IMG/VR virus record: IMGVR_UViG_3300037507_000830
Span: 1-35,299 of that record
Length of the DNA: 35,299 nt
Direction: 5' to 3' (one strand)
Origin: a virus
Positions 3,340 through 35,299 of the stretch are shown here, piece by piece (the stretch's first letter is position 1; the number at the start of each line of letters is the position of its first letter). Position numbers and translations under genes: made by a program. The notes beneath the pieces are model-generated. The model was not told the origin of the DNA. It saw only the letters and a program-made list of their open reading frames with translations, and ran no database searches.

Positions 3340-5154
3340 CTATCCGAATACTTGGTTGGCTAAAATGTTTTGGTCATCATCCGTTGGACCGCCACCGCCA
3401 CCGCCTGATGAGTTGATTGTGACATCACCTAATCCGCTGGTTGGGCTGATTGTAATGTTAGTTCCTGCAACAATGGATGTGACACCATTTGACCCTGCAG
3501 GTCCAGTAGCACCTGTTGCTCCAACAGGTCCAGTAGCACCTGTTGCTCCAACTGCACCATTTGAACCTGAAGGTCCAGTAGCACCTGTAGCTCCAACTGC
3601 ACCATTTGAACCTGAAGGTCCAGTAGCACCTGTAGCTCCAACTGCACCATTTGAACCTGAAGGTCCAGTAGCACCTGTTGCTCCAACTGCACCATTTGAA
3701 CCTGAAGGTCCAGTAGCACCTGTAGCTCCTATCGGTCCAGTTGCTCCAGTATCACCAGTAGCCCCAACAGGGCCAGTGGCACCAGTAACGCCAGTAGGTC
3801 CAACATCTCCAGTTACTCCTTGCGGTCCAGTAGCACCAATAGGTCCAGTTGCCCCAACTGCACCTTGAATTCCTTGAATACCTTGCGGGCCAGTGGCACC
3901 TGTCGCACCTGCAGGTCCAGTAGCACCTGCAGAACCCGTGGCACCAACTGAGCCAGTGGCACCAACAGGTCCAGTTGCACCGATTGGTCCAGTTGGGCCT
4001 GTAGCACCAGTTGAACCAATTGGACCAGTGGCACCTGTAGCGCCAATTGGACCAGTTGGGCCAACAATTCCAGCGCTAAAAATTACAAATATCACCTCTT
4101 GATTGTTGGAAAAGTTAGTAGTTCCTGTTCCACCTGATGTTGTAAATGTTACTGGAATTTCAACATAGTTTGTTTGCAGTGTTGGTGTAGCAGATACTGT
4201 CCACTTTTGGTAGTTGTTAGAATTATTGTTATCTTGAATGACTAAAGCATCGTTTTGCTTAATCAAAGCCAAGAAGATGTCAATATCAAAACCATCAAGG
4301 TCAATGTGATTTACATTGATTTGAGTTGCAGATATTTGTGTTGCATTGTTGTAAATAAGATGTGTGTTTCCAGGGTCACCTGATGTAATTGTGGTTTTGA
4401 CCTTGTAATCATAAAAGTTGGCACCGCCACCATCGGCACCCGTTGCACCTGTTGCACCAGTTGCACCAACTGGGCCAGTGGCACCTGTCGCACCAATTGG
4501 CCCTGTCGCACCCGTTGGACCGACTGCGCCTGTTGGACCGACTGCGCCTGTTGCCCCTGTTGTACCGACTGGACCTGTTGCGCCAACATCGCCTTGAATA
4601 CCTGTAGCACCCGTTGCACCAACTGCGCCTTGAATTCCCTGAATTCCTTGAATTCCTTGTGGACCTGTTGCACCTGTTGCACCAACTGCACCTGATACAC
4701 CTGTTGCACCAGCAGCTCCAGTTGCACCGACTGGACCTGTTGCGCCTGTTACACCTACGGCACCACTTGCACCCACGGCACCAGTTGCACCAATAGGTCC
4801 AGTAACACCTGTTGCACCAGTTACACCTACGGCACCAGTTGCACCAATAGGTCCAGTAGCACCTGTTGCACCTACTAAGCCTTGAATTCCTTGTGGCCCT
4901 GTCGGACCTGTTGCACCTATTGCACCTGTTGCGCCCGTTGCACCTGTTGCACCTATTGCACCTGTTGCGCCCGTTGCACCTGTTGCACCTGTTGCACCTG
5001 TCGGACCAGTAACGCCAGGAATCCCCTGCGGTCCTTGTTGATTGGAAACAACAATTTCTGCAGGGGTTGCATTGACGGTTGAAACCGTTACGGCATTGGG
5101 CGTTTGTGCGGTGACTGTCGTTGTTGTCGTTGGAACATAAACAATAGAAGTCAT
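3340..5154 (-). CDS. Collagen-like tail fibre protein (604 aa)
   Basis: An N-terminal segment of about 45 residues is followed by long Gly-X-Y arrays ([17 protein letters not shown]), a non-collagen domain at roughly residues 245-355, a second Gly-X-Y array and a short Gly-rich tail. Gly-X-Y arrays of this type form collagen-like triple helices in phage fibres and are a common feature of them, so a trimeric, flexible fibre is likely. The globular insert could be a trimerisation or receptor-binding domain. It begins two bases after the stop of 5157-5504. The array contains recent tandem repeats (3530-3709). Confidence 0.88.
3530..3709. repeat. Four tandem 45-bp repeats in the collagen-like gene
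   Basis: Four consecutive 45-bp units start at 3530, 3575, 3620 and 3665 and differ only at one or two bases. Each encodes the 15-residue unit [15 protein letters not shown]. Near-identity at the DNA level indicates recent expansion, so fibre length probably varies between strains. Confidence 0.9.
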
Positions 5155-16594: not shown

Positions 16595-17887
16595 TTATTT
16601 TGTGTTGTTGATAATTGCTTGCGCTAAACGCAACGAAATTGAACGGCCTGCAGTTGCTTCTTCTACATCTGTTGGCTCTAACTCAAGTTCAGGTTCTTCA
16701 ACTTCAACTTCAGGCTCGCCACCTGTAAGCATTGCCATCATCTCAACGGCCTTCATAATGTAATCGTGGCCTTCGCTCAAATCTTCAAAGATAGAATTTA
16801 GAACAACCAAAGATTCACCTGTGACTTCACGGCCTTCTTTAACTGCATCAATTGCCTTGCGTAGTGCTTCGCGTGCCTCAACACTTGTTGTTGGGTAGGC
16901 AGGATAAGTAACCACTGAAACATCTCCATCTGCTAGTGAAACTTCAGTAAGTGTGCGTTGAGAACGATCATCATTGTATTTTTGACGAATGACACGGAAA
17001 GCAAAACTCATTTGGTCAACATCTCCGCGCTCAACTAACTTGTAAAGGTCGCGCCCCTCTGATGTGTCTGCAATTGTTGCATCCATATACAAACCGCGAT
17101 CATCTTCGGTAAGTGTAAGAGTGCCATTTTTGGTTCTGGCGAGAGGTAATCCAGAATGGTTAATCAATAATCTAACATCAGGTGTTTCCATCAAAGTCTT
17201 ACGAAACGCACCAGGGGCGATTGTTTCAATGAATGGTAGGGGAACACTAGCCTCATTGAACACTGCAGCGTATCCACGCAAACGCATTGTTCCATCTTCG
17301 GCCTGTCTTGCTTCAACATCGCGCACTGTAAATGTACGGCGTTCAATCTTTTTCATTTTGCTCCTTGAATCGGCTTCAGCATCTAGTGCATCAATTTTGC
17401 GTTGCGCCCAGTTTTGCGCCCTATCAGAAAAGTTGGAATCTCCACCCCACAACAACCAAGCAACTAAACCTGCGCCTGGATATTGAGCATCTGACGGATT
17501 ATTGTTTTTTGGTGCTTGTCCATCTACTTGATGGCGTGCAAACCACGGTGCCATCTTACGAACTTTGTTTTCACTTACTCGACCTGCTGCCATCTCGCGT
17601 GCTTCACGCTTTGTGCCTTCGGTTAAGCCATCTCCCCCGAAACCTTCTTTGAGATAATCCAAACCGCGTTGTGCGTTCTCACGGATAAATGCGGGAACGC
17701 TTAAATCAACTGCTCGAACTTCTCCACCTGGTTCCATATCTTCAGCAATTGAAACTGCAACCATCTGATCTATTGCATCTTGTTTTGTGTCGTGACAAGC
17801 AAGAGTTGTATAAGAACCATCTGATTCTTCTTTAACGGTTGCCCATCCTGAACAATCGGCTTGCTTATCACTGACAAAATAAGGCAT
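16595..17887 (-). CDS. Prohead protease (HK97/U35 family) with extra N-terminal domain (430 aa)
   Basis: Residues 178-430 form a standard prohead protease: RLRGYAAVFNEAS, then LLINHSGLPLARTKNGTL with catalytic H244, and DQMSFAFRV with catalytic S294. It cleaves the capsid delta domain during maturation. Residues 1-177 are an added region (MPYFVSDKQADCSGWATVK, later FIRENAQRGLDYLKEGFGGDG and GAGLVAWLLWGGD) seen in some actinophage head genes, of unknown function. An internal ATG at 17356 (M178) has AAGGAG five bases upstream, so a 253-aa protease may also be made. ATG 17887 overlaps the portal stop. The C-terminus has a Glu-rich stretch. Confidence 0.88.
   Translation of the reverse strand: MPYFVSDKQADCSGWATVKEESDGSYTTLACHDTKQDAIDQMVAVSIAEDMEPGGEVRAVDLSVPAFIRENAQRGLDYLKEGFGGDGLTEGTKREAREMAAGRVSENKVRKMAPWFARHQVDGQAPKNNNPSDAQYPGAGLVAWLLWGGDSNFSDRAQNWAQRKIDALDAEADSRSKMKKIERRTFTVRDVEARQAEDGTMRLRGYAAVFNEASVPLPFIETIAPGAFRKTLMETPDVRLLINHSGLPLARTKNGTLTLTEDDRGLYMDATIADTSEGRDLYKLVERGDVDQMSFAFRVIRQKYNDDRSQRTLTEVSLADGDVSVVTYPAYPTTSVEAREALRKAIDAVKEGREVTGESLVVLNSIFEDLSEGHDYIMKAVEMMAMLTGGEPEVEVEEPELELEPTDVEEATAGRSISLRLAQAIINNTK
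17351..17367 (-). promoter_or_regulatory. Internal ribosome site and start inside the protease gene
   Basis: On the coding strand AAGGAG is followed five bases later by ATG (17356-17354), in frame at codon 178, exactly where homology to the canonical protease begins (MKKIERRTF). This predicts a second, shorter protein from the same gene. Confidence 0.6.
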
Positions 17888-26058: not shown

Positions 26059-26522
26059 TCTTGCCCCCTCATAATTACTACTGCAGATGGAAACGGCGCA
26101 CAATTTTTTTGATTTCCAAATTTCAACCTGCCACGCATAAATCTGATCTCATGTTGGATGCAATACTCATGCCACCATGAAGTGTCTGTTCTACTAGGAA
26201 CTAAGCACACAATTTGCCCCCCCCCGCAATTGGCTTCAAGGTTAGCCTTTTGCATCCAACTTTTTATCGTTCGCCCGTATGGTGGATTCAACCAAATGTT
26301 TCCCTTAGCATCTTCCTGCCAATTGCGTTCAAAAGCATCTCGCAATTCAGGTGTTTCGTGATCGGGTCCATACCAAAGATTGCAAAGCGCTGAAGATTTC
26401 AAAGCTGCTGCATCAAGAGTAAATTGAAATTCATCGTTTAGTGCATCAAAAAACGCTCTTGGTGTTGTCCAAGTATCATCTAATGAGGATTTATATGCCT
26501 CACCTGAATAGAAACCTTGCAT
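26055..26522 (-). CDS. Phage DNA N6-adenine methyltransferase (155 aa)
   Basis: WTTPRAFFDALNDEFQFTLDAAA and IWLNPPYGRTIKSWMQKA are diagnostic for the phage Dam-like family; NPPY is the catalytic motif. It would methylate adenine in phage DNA and may protect it from host restriction. ATG 26522 overlaps the stop of the upstream gene by one base. A run of nine C at 26217-26225 (G9 in the coding strand) lies inside the frame. Confidence 0.88.
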   Translation of the reverse strand: MQGFYSGEAYKSSLDDTWTTPRAFFDALNDEFQFTLDAAALKSSALCNLWYGPDHETPELRDAFERNWQEDAKGNIWLNPPYGRTIKSWMQKANLEANCGGGQIVCLVPSRTDTSWWHEYCIQHEIRFMRGRLKFGNQKNCAPFPSAVVIMRGQE

Positions 26523-27205
26523 TATTCTGCCACCATCCGCGAGATAATCCACTCAACAACAGGCACCGCTACCGCGTTGCCCATTTGCTTATAGCGGTTT
26601 GAATCGGCCTGCCCATCTGTCCAACCATCAGGGAACCCTTGAAGGCGCTCACATTCCATTGGCGTTAACCTGCGCACAACTGCAGATTTAAAAACAGTTC
26701 CCATTTTGTCTAAATCTGAGCCTGTTCTTAAAGTCTGATTTGTTTCTGAAATTGTGTGGTTGTAAGCATCAAAGGCAAGAACTGGTGAATTGTTGTTTGT
26801 CATTCCAGCCTTGAGTGTTCCGACACCTTCAGAATAATTAGCAAAATCTGATGGTGAAAAAGCAACTACTGCAGGTGCTTGCTGGCGATCTAATGTATAG
26901 GCAGGTGCGCCTTCGGCACCAATGCCAGTTCCGTTTTGGTGCTTTTCTAATTCTCTTGCATCATCAATAGGAAATACCATTGGCACATTCCCACCCCCTG
27001 TTCCATATCGTGAAATAACTGTTGGCACAATGCCATCCTCATAAACGCGCACATCATTTACACGCGTTCCATCAATAATTAAAACTGTTGCGTAAGCCTC
27101 ACCATTGTTATCCATTGCGTTCAATGTTGGCACTACCCCCCCCGCAATCCAAGATTCATAATCGTTAACATTTTGCGCCCGCTTAGCTTTCGTGAAGAAG
27201 AACAT
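26522..27205 (-). CDS. DNA cytosine-C5 methyltransferase, C-terminal part (227 aa)
   Basis: The C-terminal part contains RRLTPMECERLQGFPDGW (motif IX) and KQMGNAVAVPVVEWI (motif X). Before it are repeated target-recognition-like units (FANYSEGVGTLKAGMTNN, TLNAMDNNGEAY). The catalytic part is on 27183-27914 in another frame, overlapping by 23 bases. It could be a second subunit, as in naturally split enzymes such as M.AquI, or one gene broken by a one-base shift. An in-frame ATG at 27205 exists, without a strong ribosome site. Confidence 0.8.
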   Translation of the reverse strand: MFFFTKAKRAQNVNDYESWIAGGVVPTLNAMDNNGEAYATVLIIDGTRVNDVRVYEDGIVPTVISRYGTGGGNVPMVFPIDDARELEKHQNGTGIGAEGAPAYTLDRQQAPAVVAFSPSDFANYSEGVGTLKAGMTNNNSPVLAFDAYNHTISETNQTLRTGSDLDKMGTVFKSAVVRRLTPMECERLQGFPDGWTDGQADSNRYKQMGNAVAVPVVEWIISRMVAE

Positions 27206-27914
27206 TATCTTCAGGCCTTTTGTATGAAGTAGCGGTAAGGGTTGTTATTCCTTCGGTGTATTTTGAGAATCCTGATTGGCCAAATGCTGCAACGCTTGTT
27301 CCAGTTGCACTGGCAGTGTCTTTTCCCTTCGATTTGCTCTGCGCAAGATACCTTGCGCGGCTTTCGGGGATAGCAAGTATTTCTTCAGGTGATCTCCCTG
27401 AGTCTCCAAGACATCCGACAATGAACACTCTACGACGGCGTTGGGGTACTCCGAAGTGTTGAGCATCAAGCACCCTGTAGGCGATGCGATACCCGCGCTC
27501 AACCAACGCTTCAAGAACAACGGCCATATCTGCGCCTTGATTGCTGGAAAGTAAACCAGGGACATTTTCGAGGATAAAATTTTGCGCTCTTGTTTCGTCA
27601 AGCAATCGGCAGATTTCCCAAAATAATCCTGATCTAGCACCACCCAATCCTGCTCGTTTTCCAGCCACTGATAAATCTTGGCAGGGGAATCCACCTGTGA
27701 TGATTCCATTTCTAGGTTCAAATCCTGCTGCAATGAGTTGTTCACCTGTTACCCCCGTTATGTCTCCGAATATAGTTGATTGTGGAAAATGCTTCTTCAA
27801 TACTTCTTGTGCTTTTTTATCTATCTCAACTGATGCAACTACTCTCACACCATTGCGTTCCAAAGCTAGATCAAAGCCACCAACACCTGCAAATAAACTA
27901 ACTGCAGTTCTCAC
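27183..27914 (-). CDS. DNA cytosine-C5 methyltransferase, N-terminal catalytic part (243 aa)
   Basis: SLFAGVGGFDLAL (motif I, AdoMet binding), GGFPCQDLS (motif IV, catalytic Cys), ENVPG (motif VI) and QRRRRVFIVG (motif VIII) are intact. The frame then ends after NVLLHES, before motifs IX and X, which are in the overlapping next frame. Start GTG 27914 is chosen because it overlaps the upstream TGA (GTGA) and has GGGGGGAA at good distance; an ATG at 27929 is the alternative. It probably acts against host restriction or to mark phage DNA. Confidence 0.85.
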   Translation of the reverse strand: MRTAVSLFAGVGGFDLALERNGVRVVASVEIDKKAQEVLKKHFPQSTIFGDITGVTGEQLIAAGFEPRNGIITGGFPCQDLSVAGKRAGLGGARSGLFWEICRLLDETRAQNFILENVPGLLSSNQGADMAVVLEALVERGYRIAYRVLDAQHFGVPQRRRRVFIVGCLGDSGRSPEEILAIPESRARYLAQSKSKGKDTASATGTSVAAFGQSGFSKYTEGITTLTATSYKRPEDNVLLHES

Positions 27915-28081
27915 TTGCTTCCCCCCCATCCATCACCCTTAAAGATAGTTCCCCCAAGTGAATACTTGCGTTGCATTAACTTCTTTTTGCAACCTTCGCA
28001 GATGATTCTCTTTTCATCATCCATTTGAAAAAACACTTCAGCACTATGCCCACAATCGCAAGTAAATTCATAAAAAGGCAT
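27911..28081 (-). CDS. FmdB-like zinc-ribbon protein (56 aa)
   Basis: ATG 28081 with GGGGGAA upstream starts MPFYEFTCDCGHSAEVFFQM. Cys 8, 10, 28 and 31 (CDCG, CEGC) form a zinc ribbon, and the end GTIFKGDGWGGSK matches the C-terminal pattern of the FmdB-type family. These are small putative regulatory proteins of unclear function. Its TGA overlaps the GTG of the methyltransferase. Confidence 0.75.
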   Translation of the reverse strand: MPFYEFTCDCGHSAEVFFQMDDEKRIICEGCKKKLMQRKYSLGGTIFKGDGWGGSK

Positions 28082-30277: not shown

Positions 30278-30727
30278 TTAGTGCCAGCCTTTTAATGAGT
30301 CTTTTGTCTGTTGGTGTAATGGTGCTGCTCCTTGTTCAGTTGCCGCCAACTTCTTCAACACTCGCCTGACATAGCCAGGTGAGGTGTGAAGTTGAACCGC
30401 AATTTCGTTGGCAAGAATTCCTTTTTTATGCAATTGAATAATCATTAGCGCCATCCCTTTGAAGGCGTAATCATTATCCTTTGCAGCAACGGCATCTCTT
30501 TCGGTTGGCGATTTGCCACCCCAAGTGCCGTATGGAATTTGCTTTTCTAGTGCGTACTCCAAACACTCCTTTTCGTGAATACAACTTGCGCATATTGCTT
30601 TAAGTTGGTGCAGTCTTTCTGCCTCTTGTGCGCGGTTGATGGGGAAAAAGAAATCTTTATCCTCAACATCTGCACACTTTGCTTCATCAAATCGTGGTAG
30701 ATCAACAAAGAAATCAAAACTTTTCAA
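30278..30727 (-). CDS. WhiB-family transcription regulator with extra HTH (149 aa)
   Basis: C18, C46, C49 and C55 in the typical C-x(n)-CxxC-x5-C order, with GTWGGKSPTERDA after them, define a WhiB iron-sulfur protein. These actinobacterial factors bind sigma-A and adjust transcription; phage versions can act on the host. After the WhiB core (residues 1-80) the C-terminus (MIIQLHKKGILANEIAVQLHTSPGYVRRVLKKLAA) looks like a helix-turn-helix, an addition not found in most WhiB proteins. TTG 30727 overlaps the upstream TGA as TTGA. Confidence 0.9.
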   Translation of the reverse strand: MKSFDFFVDLPRFDEAKCADVEDKDFFFPINRAQEAERLHQLKAICASCIHEKECLEYALEKQIPYGTWGGKSPTERDAVAAKDNDYAFKGMALMIIQLHKKGILANEIAVQLHTSPGYVRRVLKKLAATEQGAAPLHQQTKDSLKGWH

Positions 30728-31074
30728 TGCTTTTCATCCAACCATTGTTGAAGGTCCTGGATTACCCAGGCTTTTTCAATCCCAGCGTTTCGGCGCTTGA
30801 GAATGATGTAATGCAATGGAACCTCGGCTAAACCGCGTGCCTTTGCATAGTTTTCTGCCTCAACTTCAGCTTCACGCCAAAATTCAGGCAAACTTATTGT
30901 TTTACGATTCTTGAGTTCAAGAATGTATTGCTTGCCACCAATGATTGCGACTAAATCGCCTTCATCGTTCTTACCCGCCTTTACCAAACGCTCACATAAG
31001 GCACCAGCACTACGAAGCCAACGCATAACATCGGTTTCAAATTGTGCGCCTTTGCGCCCGTTTGGATTAGCCAT
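30724..31074 (-). CDS. PD-(D/E)XK nuclease, Holliday-junction-resolvase-like (116 aa)
   Basis: The N-terminus KGAQFETDVMRWLRSAGALCERL is followed by DEGDLVAIIGGKQYILELKNRK, giving the D-x(n)-ExK active site of the VRR/Hjc-type endonucleases. It may resolve recombination intermediates or debranch replicating DNA. ATG 31074 starts four bases after the stop of 31079-31444. Confidence 0.75.
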   Translation of the reverse strand: MANPNGRKGAQFETDVMRWLRSAGALCERLVKAGKNDEGDLVAIIGGKQYILELKNRKTISLPEFWREAEVEAENYAKARGLAEVPLHYIILKRRNAGIEKAWVIQDLQQWLDEKH

Positions 31075-31078
31075 TGAT

Positions 31079-31444
31079 TTATTTAACCGCCTTCAATGAT
31101 GGGTAGTTGGTGCCAGCCTCACGACTAATGCGGGCAAACTTAACTGCTCGAATCAAATCTTCAGCCAAAATAAGTGCTTCTTGCTCTGTCATATTGCAAA
31201 GCAATGGTGCGTTCTCGCCCAAGTTATCACGGGCATTATCTAGGCGTTCAAAGTAGTTTTCAGACTTCACGCCACGATCTGCACAATGGCGCAGTAAGTC
31301 CAAATCATCTAATTCGTAAGCACCAACAACATCTTGCACTAAATCCTTTACTGCATCTTGTTCTTCAAGATAAAGGGCAATGTGTCCGTCTGAATGATTA
31401 TGAATTGAAAATAGTGGGTCGCGTGGTTGCTTTTCTAAGTTCAT
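31079..31444 (-). CDS. Hypothetical protein (121 aa)
   Basis: An acidic, helical protein with N-terminal FSIHNHSDGHIALYLEEQDAVKD and a C-terminal segment TEQEALILAEDLIRAVKFARI. No known family or catalytic motif is recognised. It overlaps the tiny membrane protein gene by four bases (ATGA), and so belongs to the same early operon. Confidence 0.6.
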   Translation of the reverse strand: MNLEKQPRDPLFSIHNHSDGHIALYLEEQDAVKDLVQDVVGAYELDDLDLLRHCADRGVKSENYFERLDNARDNLGENAPLLCNMTEQEALILAEDLIRAVKFARISREAGTNYPSLKAVK

Positions 31445-31533
31445 CGGCCTTCACCGATTTCAAAAGCTGCAATGATGATGAGATACAAGCAAATAATGCC
31501 TATAAACCCACACGCTAAGCCTAACCAAAACAT
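31441..31533 (-). CDS. Tiny membrane protein (30 aa)
   Basis: ATG 31533 has a strong GGAAAGGA ribosome site and encodes MFWLGLACGFIGIICLYLIII followed by a short polar end, a single transmembrane segment. Its TGA overlaps the next ATG. The good ribosome site and coupling argue that it is real; function is unknown. Confidence 0.6.
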   Translation of the reverse strand: MFWLGLACGFIGIICLYLIIIAAFEIGEGR

Positions 31534-31595: not shown

Positions 31596-32129
31596 CTAGA
31601 CTCGCTGAACTTCAATCTGAAAAGGTTTGGCGGTGTTGATGTCATATTTGGCGGCAATGGCAAGTGCCTTGAGGATTTCAGCCCTGCCGACATTCGGCAC
31701 TGCCTGCGCCAATGCGCCAAGCGCGTAGGCACTGCCTGAGCCGACCCCGTACAGGCCATCTTCAGATTGGGTAACGCTCAAGTCATCGCCAATTTCAAAG
31801 ACATTGCCAGCAAAGGCCAACAGGTATGAGTAACTGATTCCTTCTTTGGTGTAATCAAATCCCTGCAACTTAAACGCTGCAATGATGCTGGGGATGATCT
31901 TTCGACCCATAAAGGTAACAGGGTTACTGCCATCGTATGCAGGCGGTGTCCAGTTGTAAGTGAGAATGTCACCTGGCCTGCAATCACCGCTTACTGCCAA
32001 AAGGTATTTCTTCAGCTTTACGATCTTTGGCGTGCTGGGCGAAATGATGCGCTTATCCCCATCGGTAACCTGAGAGTCTGCCCCTAGAATGGCAAAATCA
32101 GGCCCCTGGAAGGCTATTAGCGTGGTCAT
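31596..32129 (-). CDS. Proteasome beta/HslV-like Ntn-hydrolase (177 aa)
   Basis: From ATG 32129 the protein reads MTTLIAFQGPDFAILGADSQVTDG. Thr2 would be the N-terminal nucleophile after Met removal; D18 and K35 stand where proteasome and HslV peptidases have their catalytic Asp17 and Lys33 (within one residue), and YGVGSGSAYALGAL matches the conserved GSG loop. The end AAKYDINTAKPFQIEVQRV is also typical. Length is close to HslV. Targets are unknown: self-processing, virion maturation or host proteins are possible. An earlier in-frame start (32222) is rejected because it would bury Thr2. A -10 box six bases before ATG suggests leaderless translation. Confidence 0.8.
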   Translation of the reverse strand: MTTLIAFQGPDFAILGADSQVTDGDKRIISPSTPKIVKLKKYLLAVSGDCRPGDILTYNWTPPAYDGSNPVTFMGRKIIPSIIAAFKLQGFDYTKEGISYSYLLAFAGNVFEIGDDLSVTQSEDGLYGVGSGSAYALGALAQAVPNVGRAEILKALAIAAKYDINTAKPFQIEVQRV

Positions 32130-32141
32130 TGGCCAAGTGTA
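32130..32141 (-). promoter_or_regulatory. Putative leaderless promoter -10 region
   Basis: CTACACTT occurs on the minus strand with TACACT at 32141-32136, six bases before ATG 32129. In actinobacteria a TANNNT box at this distance often gives a leaderless mRNA starting at the ATG. There is no Shine-Dalgarno sequence upstream. No -35 consensus is seen; the repeats at 32148-32167 lie at that position. Confidence 0.5.
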
Positions 32142-32204: not shown

Positions 32205-32336
32205 TAGATTTGAGCCTAACACGCTTAAATCCTGTTATCAAATCGTTATGTGTCTTGGGGTCAAATGTTGCCTGTCTGTATATACAGGTGCTAAGGTTAT
32301 CTCAATGGGGAACGGCCCCTAAGAACGGATAGCAAA
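32205..32336 (+). promoter_or_regulatory. Divergent control region, plus-strand promoter with palindromic operator
   Basis: TTGCCT (32268-32273) and TAAGGT (32292-32297) are separated by 18 bases, a reasonable -35/-10 pair for the rightward genes. The perfect 12-bp palindrome CTGTATATACAG (32276-32287) fills the spacer, an ideal place for repression. The RNA leader of about 30 bases contains GGATAG ahead of ATG 32337. Confidence 0.55.
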
Positions 32337-34951: not shown

Positions 34952-35203
34952 TTATTCTTGCGGCCCTTCGGCTCCATTGACCATTTCAATTGGAGGTGTT
35001 TCTGTTAATCCTACTGGGCCTTCTACAACTACGGGCGCATCAAACTTGCCAGTCTCAAAATCATAAATCCAGCCAATGCCAGCAGGGTTTTCAGGTGTGT
35101 ATTCAATCAAAGTGCAGTGTAATGCTGCCTCTGTTGCTTCCTTGTCATCTGCCACAATTACATTTGAAACTATATTGCCACTCATCATTGCGTATGTTGC
35201 CAT
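34952..35203 (-). CDS. Small tail-fibre-associated protein (83 aa), complete copy
   Basis: MATYAMMSGNIVSNVIVADD, then TLIEYTPENPAGIGWIYDFE and an acidic Pro/Glu/Gly end (GPVGLTETPPIEMVNGAEGPQE). It aligns with the 60-aa paralogue at 6448-6630 over its first 60 residues and extends it by about 20. It is the intact version of the gene cut at position 1. Located between a glycine-rich gene and the GT-B glycosyltransferase, it likely belongs to the tail-fibre set. Confidence 0.82.
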   Translation of the reverse strand: MATYAMMSGNIVSNVIVADDKEATEAALHCTLIEYTPENPAGIGWIYDFETGKFDAPVVVEGPVGLTETPPIEMVNGAEGPQE

Positions 35204-35299
35204 TTATTTTCCCCTTAGTAGTAAAGATAAAGTACGCCATTGCCACCAGCACCTGATGTGCCTGAGTTGTTGGCGGCTCCGCCTCCGCCTCCGCCATCT
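34962..35299. repeat. Terminal redundancy, right copy (matches 1-332)
   Basis: The last 338 bases repeat the first 332 with a few substitutions and six extra bases, which add two Val to the small fibre-associated protein (APVVVEGP versus APVEGP). With the ends joined, gene order and strand run smoothly through the junction. Confidence 0.85.
35215..35299 (-). CDS. Glycine-rich tail fibre protein, C-terminal fragment
   Basis: The frame enters from the right edge and ends at TAA 35217-35215. It encodes the same C-terminal part as 248-332 (Gly-rich, ending GVLYLYY), so it is the overlap copy of the 309-aa protein rather than a separate gene, unless the terminal repeat is a true duplication. Confidence 0.75.
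   Translation of the reverse strand, partial: DGGGGGGAANNSGTSGAGGNGVLYLYY

Follow-up and report, generated by a model that had tools for sequence, protein, structure and literature searches.

We analysed a 35,299-nt stretch of viral DNA (IMG/VR record IMGVR_UViG_3300037507_000830, hereafter the window) that carries, on the minus strand at positions 31596-32129, a gene for a proteasome-like Ntn peptidase of 177 amino acids (group I, PHROG 1040). The reading frame runs from an ATG at 32129 to a stop at 31596, whereas the plus strand across the same interval is interrupted by stops. The assignment draws on the reading frame, PF00227, PHROG, an AlphaFold2 model and a fold search. The protein starts with MTTLIAFQG, and the Met-Thr-Thr start is common to every full-length relative; lengths of 177, 182 and 187 amino acids occur among relatives, and the H3-H4 tip varies. 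We rejected a 208-amino-acid form starting from a GTG at 32222, with the extension as a propeptide, because the extension is not conserved. Since the upstream frame carries stops in many relatives, we assigned the ATG at 32129 as the start.

Operon and promoter

The peptidase gene heads a minus-strand operon and is followed by genes for a small membrane peptide, a 121-amino-acid protein, a RusA-like resolvase, WhiB, a transglycosylase, recombination proteins and an exonuclease; divergent genes lie on its other side. We found 58 IMG/VR loci with full-length peptidase genes, and the operon-head position proposed in the preliminary description recurred in all window-type loci of sufficient length. 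Judging from its gene content, this operon is probably expressed early. A scan by resolvase recovered the peptidase in 67 of the 70 loci in which the stretch examined was long enough to judge. Three resolvase-bearing loci without an upstream peptidase (L227, L229 and L235) at first seemed to break this pattern, but comparison by eye showed that L227 and L229 have an early-region gene in common with Planktophila phages, and L235, the longest record of the three, has a peptidase gene elsewhere in the record.

The second gene of the operon (31441-31533, minus strand) encodes a 30-amino-acid peptide with a single transmembrane span, MFWLGLACGFIGIICLYLIIIAAFEIGEGR, and overlaps the next gene at an ATGA; its position and type are conserved in nearly all relatives inspected. 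The peptide found between the peptidase and the 121-amino-acid gene is 30-39 amino acids long with a single membrane span, and relatives differ in which of two versions, unrelated in sequence, they have at this place. The third gene (31079-31444, minus strand), always located downstream in the conserved gene order, encodes the 121-amino-acid protein, which had no match in Pfam or PHROG. We folded this protein as a possible partner, and the model was too poor to use (pLDDT 54.7). The same operon harbors the RusA-like Holliday junction resolvase (30724-31074, minus strand; phrog_244, E 4.8e-20) and the WhiB-family regulator, an actinophage marker (30278-30727, minus strand; phrog_472, E 3e-16).

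Comparison of 43 loci revealed a TANNNT box (TACACT, TACAAT, TATACT or TAAAAT) that ends 6-7 nt 5' of the ATG in nearly all of them and is retained even where the remaining upstream DNA is unrelated between loci. For L002 and L017 the script gave a second, nearer TANNNT match, and the TACACTT box was recognised by eye. The window has a -10-like TACACT element at 32136-32141 (minus strand), 6 nt before the ATG. Leaderless promoters in Actinobacteria have such a TANNNT box just before the ATG, and the leaderless-type promoter suggested earlier from the window alone is borne out by the comparison.

Several other features of the window were recorded. Its ends (1-332 and 34961-35299) match at 96% over 338 columns, to the last base; although IMG/VR labels the record linear, it probably represents a complete genome, circular or permuted, that was closed over strain variants. 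A C-5 cytosine methyltransferase seems to be divided between two overlapping minus-strand frames, the N part and C part at 26522-27205 and 27183-27929, representing either a frameshift or a real split gene. A 604-amino-acid protein (3340-5154, minus strand), rich in GATGATGP-type collagen-like repeats, is encoded near several glycine-rich tail-region proteins.

Family, fold and catalytic centre

The window protein scored 27.5 bits against PF00227 (Proteasome; curated cut-off 22.4, E 2.9e-6) and matched phrog_1040, 'peptidase HslV family' (E 3.8e-24), as expected from its description as a proteasome/HslV-like peptidase; PHROG 1040 was matched by 44/44 members of a multi-clade alignment that included it. 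The AlphaFold2 monomer model (pLDDT 91.8, pTM 0.87) returned an Ntn rather than a non-Ntn fold, and VIA-align gave the same Z of 19.8 to BPH 5ovt (170 residues) and to HslV 4hnz (167 residues), superposing model residue 2 on Thr1. The match to 20S beta and Anbu was only slightly lower, with Z of 18-20 across all four. Since HslV, BPH and 20S beta all match, the fold alone cannot pick among them. At an E of 0.001 or better the model also matched 38 viral structure models, some of them already named HslV or proteasome subunit.

The top-ranking sequence-profile matches were BPH 5ovu, covered over its whole length at 1.6e-10, and T. maritima HslV. The HslV NCBIfam equivalog models scored 29.6 bits against a cut-off of 137 and 25.8 against 157.75; the bacterial 20S beta equivalog gave no match up to E 10, and the archaeal beta model scored 14.7 against 224. 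Among the window proteins scanned, there was no second PF00227 protein that could be an alpha subunit partner, and PADLOC assigned no defence or counter-defence label. The proteasome/HslV-like Ntn assignment therefore stands by sequence, fold and invariant catalytic residues, but a true HslV finds no support, with scores far below the cut-offs and no HslU in the likely host class.

We counted residues in 136 distinct phage proteins, that is, 135 plus the window protein. Thr2, Asp18 and Lys35, corresponding to the Thr, Asp and Lys positions noted in the preliminary description, are each invariant (136/136), and no homologue in this set lacks any of them. Thr2 (codon 32124-32126, minus strand, as for all codons given here) is the predicted nucleophile; it would become Thr1 after removal of the Met and aligns with Thr1 of BPH and HslV. 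Asp18 (32076-32078) is the mature Asp17, and Lys35 (32025-32027), the counterpart of Lys33 through a one-residue insertion, aligns with the active-site Lys of HslV and BPH. Gly48 (31986-31988; mature Gly47, the oxyanion-hole glycine) occurs in 133 of the 136 proteins and T166 in 132. The GSGSAYALG loop that had also been pointed out contains the GSG motif of the peptidase, G130-S131-G132; position 131 (31737-31739) is Ser in 110, Thr in 25 and Cys in 1 of the 136, and we take Ser131 to be the counterpart of Ser129 of 20S beta. The median pairwise dN/dS of the window clade is 0.16. The invariant Thr, Asp and Lys, together with this dN/dS, suggest that the gene is kept as an enzyme and not as an inert decoy, and the sequences thus argue for a catalytically intact, active-looking peptidase.

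The subfamily is marked by R51 (134/136) and a PP pair at 62-63, between H1 and H2 (132-136 of 136), with no counterpart in E. coli HslV. In the model, a short H1 (50-59) is followed by the conserved PP insertion, H2 (70-88) and, leading to the next strand, a loop of 11 residues (QGFDYTKEGIS). Between the oxyanion strand and the strand after H2, the clade profile matches BPH in length and exceeds T. maritima HslV by about 14 residues. The pore loop is a short linker in HslV and long and acidic in BPH (PMC5777263); the H2-to-strand loop of the window protein is longer than that of HslV and not strongly acidic, and the Planktophila-phage clade has a longer loop rich in Asp. The short H1, the PP insertion and the variable H3-H4 tip suggest that ring contacts may differ.

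Relatives, unfoldase partners and host

The window clade had no match in bacterial genomes. A second clade includes LanE43AprE7 and F5, two phages isolated with Ca. Planktophila as host (PMC10202952); relatives in IMG/VR number at least 199. In this Planktophila-phage clade the homologue lies immediately behind the portal gene, both in the Planktophila phages (L078, 17155-17691) and in 80 of 80 related loci (L080-L159), and not in an early operon, indicating that the family as a whole does not share an early action. The two cultured Planktophila phages had no Peptidase_S78 match, and in this clade the homologue might serve as a virion or head protease. Phage DSL-LC01 belongs to a third clade, and Arthrobacter and Microbacterium phages have more distant homologues annotated 'protease'. 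Chromosomal relatives, counting any match, were present in 36 of 395 Actinomycetia genomes (up to 1e-43). The genomes of L242-L253 and further Actinomycetia, about 5-11 Mb in size, carry a single-copy chromosomal proteasome-like gene, MTCIVGV...FRMGQLLRYSLVPP.

In the tree, the window, DSL-LC01, Planktophila-phage and SEA-phage clades form a moderately supported group (86/87) that is separate from the MTC forms of chromosomes and proteobacterial phages (96/98); several branches are long, leaving the deeper joins unsure. We also tried a several-clade alignment as a source for scanning, and it contained no sufficiently conserved stretch.

Scanning of the 20 larger window proteins revealed no HslU- or Mpa-like ATPase, in agreement with the preliminary description, and the only ATPases among them were a Prim-Pol/AAA_25 helicase and the terminase. 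AAA_2 was absent from five related records (33-35 kb) and two cultured phages. Among the 395 Actinomycetia genomes, none had an HslU over the cut-off and 309 had a canonical 20S beta, which many genomes as small as those of streamlined freshwater hosts (1.0-1.5 Mb) lacked. The absence of HslU from all 395 excludes an HslUV pairing if the host is actinobacterial.

The window likely represents a freshwater virus of Actinobacteria. A Nanopelagicales host is a tentative proposal from WhiB, a GC content of 46% and the homologues in Planktophila phages; the window contained no tRNA and gave no host-genome match. The best cultured terminase match was a Pontimonas phage, making a freshwater Microbacteriaceae host also possible; the search of phages found no peptidase homologue in the Pontimonas phage.

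Proposed role and comparison with known systems

We favour, with modest confidence, the explanation that the peptidase is an ATP-independent, self-compartmentalising threonine protease that acts early; we infer its assembly, activity, ATP independence, timing and targets. Host methionine aminopeptidase would expose Thr1 with no propeptide, as the Met-Thr start and the lack of a conserved upstream frame suggest. The subunits would then close into a single or double ring like those of BPH or HslV, self-compartmentalisation being plausible by homology with both. Such a ring would work without a dedicated unfoldase, on small, unfolded or specifically recognised proteins let past the inner pore loop. 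BPH, too, combines a lengthened pore loop with the lack of an unfoldase partner; its mechanism was deduced from epoxomicin binding, and it was inactive on the model substrates tried (PMC5777263), so the fold alone does not establish activity. The leaderless promoter at the operon head may place the peptidase among the first proteins made after infection, and host proteins or short-lived phage regulators would then be the most likely targets. Tentatively, and with considerable doubt, this explanation could be extended to an early unfoldase-independent viral proteasome with which freshwater actinophages reshape the proteome of the host or clear away defence proteins; in a sister group of phages, a homologue would have been relocated among the genes for virion assembly.

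We weighed these proposals against four others. The peptidase might be a core that degrades folded host proteins with the help of an AAA+ unfoldase taken from the host (ARC/Mpa, ClpX or ClpC), given that Mpa-type ATPases are probably common in Actinomycetia, as 20S beta is found in 309/395 of the genomes. We consider this unlikely because the long pore-loop segment resembles that of the unfoldase-independent BPH, HslU is missing from the class and no co-occurring AAA+ was reported by Fuchs et al. (PMC8665760). The survey also places a monomeric ligase, connectase, among the proteasome-like relatives, so that the peptidase could conceivably be a connectase-like enzyme, perhaps monomeric, that processes or ligates one host or phage protein with high specificity; R51 and the PP motif, being specific to the subfamily, might mark the place where the target is recognised. 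The model, however, does not have the long insertion of connectase between the third and fourth strands, and the ring-forming BPH and HslV are the closest overall, leaving a specific enzyme as a minor possibility.

A role in the virion is very unlikely for the window phage. The homologue after the portal gene in all 80 Planktophila-clade loci, together with the two cultured phages in which no Peptidase_S78 was found, would suit a head-maturation or virion protease, but the window has its own prohead serine protease (Peptidase_S78, PF04586, E 2.9e-42) at 16595-17887 on the minus strand, between the portal and capsid genes, and its Ntn gene sits in the replication/recombination operon. The Ntn peptidase is therefore not needed for head maturation in the window phage. 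A decoy was also raised in the preliminary description; in the form of a decoy or poison subunit that inserts into and blocks the host 20S proteasome, the idea could draw on the presence of 20S beta in most sampled Actinomycetia genomes. We regard it as highly improbable, since a decoy has no need of three catalytic residues conserved in 136/136 proteins, sequence profiles place the protein nearer BPH and HslV than any of the bacterial 20S subunits, and many 1.0-1.5 Mb genomes are without 20S beta.

The peptidase is already known in kind, being covered by PHROG 1040, by the SEA 'protease' genes and by the proteasome homologues of phages and hosts (PPH) and the alpha-proteobacterial and actinobacterial homologues (AAH) of Fuchs, Alva and Lupas 2021 (PMC8665760). 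Phage proteasome homologues have so far been catalogued in databases and one survey without a function for any. What we add is a clade from actinophages that is both large and conserved and has homologues in Planktophila phages in culture, an unusually clean case with an invariant catalytic centre, a fixed position at the head of a probable early operon and a leaderless promoter. The homologues in phages cultured on Ca. Planktophila and Arthrobacter make the role of a viral proteasome testable.

At the family level, nothing separates the window protein from PHROG 1040 and PF00227. It resembles PPH and AAH in being a compact group I proteasome-like subunit, found in tailed phages and some hosts, with no AAA+ partner found; Fuchs et al. 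reported that no AAA+ interactor co-occurs with these families (PMC8665760). PPH are about 140 amino acids long and do not have H2 (PMC8665760), whereas the window protein has 177 and includes H2. No Actinobacteria-specific phage encoding an AAH was found in that survey (PMC8665760); the window clade consists of phages with actinophage markers and would fill this gap if it is AAH-like, PPH and AAH having been compared by their published descriptions and, for AAH, through chromosomal homologues of Actinobacteria whose label is unverified. BPH (5ovs/5ovt/5ovu) is the best structural and profile match, tied with HslV in fold, and likewise combines a long H2/pore-loop segment with no unfoldase. 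However, identity to BPH is about 20%, and the window protein has a less acidic loop, is phage-borne and carries the PP insertion after H1. HslV shares the fold, triad, GSG motif and Thr directly after Met, but the window protein scores far below the HslV model cut-offs, has no HslU in the phage or the likely host class, and has a longer pore-loop segment and the PP insertion. No cellular relatives closer than the chromosomal MTC-type Actinomycetia homologues were found (E about 1e-37 to 1e-43); these have the FR..QLL.....PP stretch in common with the window protein, but they carry Cys after Thr1 and fall in a separate part of the tree. The 'ATP-dependent protease subunit' of DSL-LC01 is homologous, 37% identical to the window protein and set in another gene neighbourhood; the 'protease' genes of the SEA phages Hum25 and Pitbull (Arthrobacter) and Pumpernickel (Microbacterium) are homologous too, remoter than DSL-LC01 and located in other neighbourhoods.
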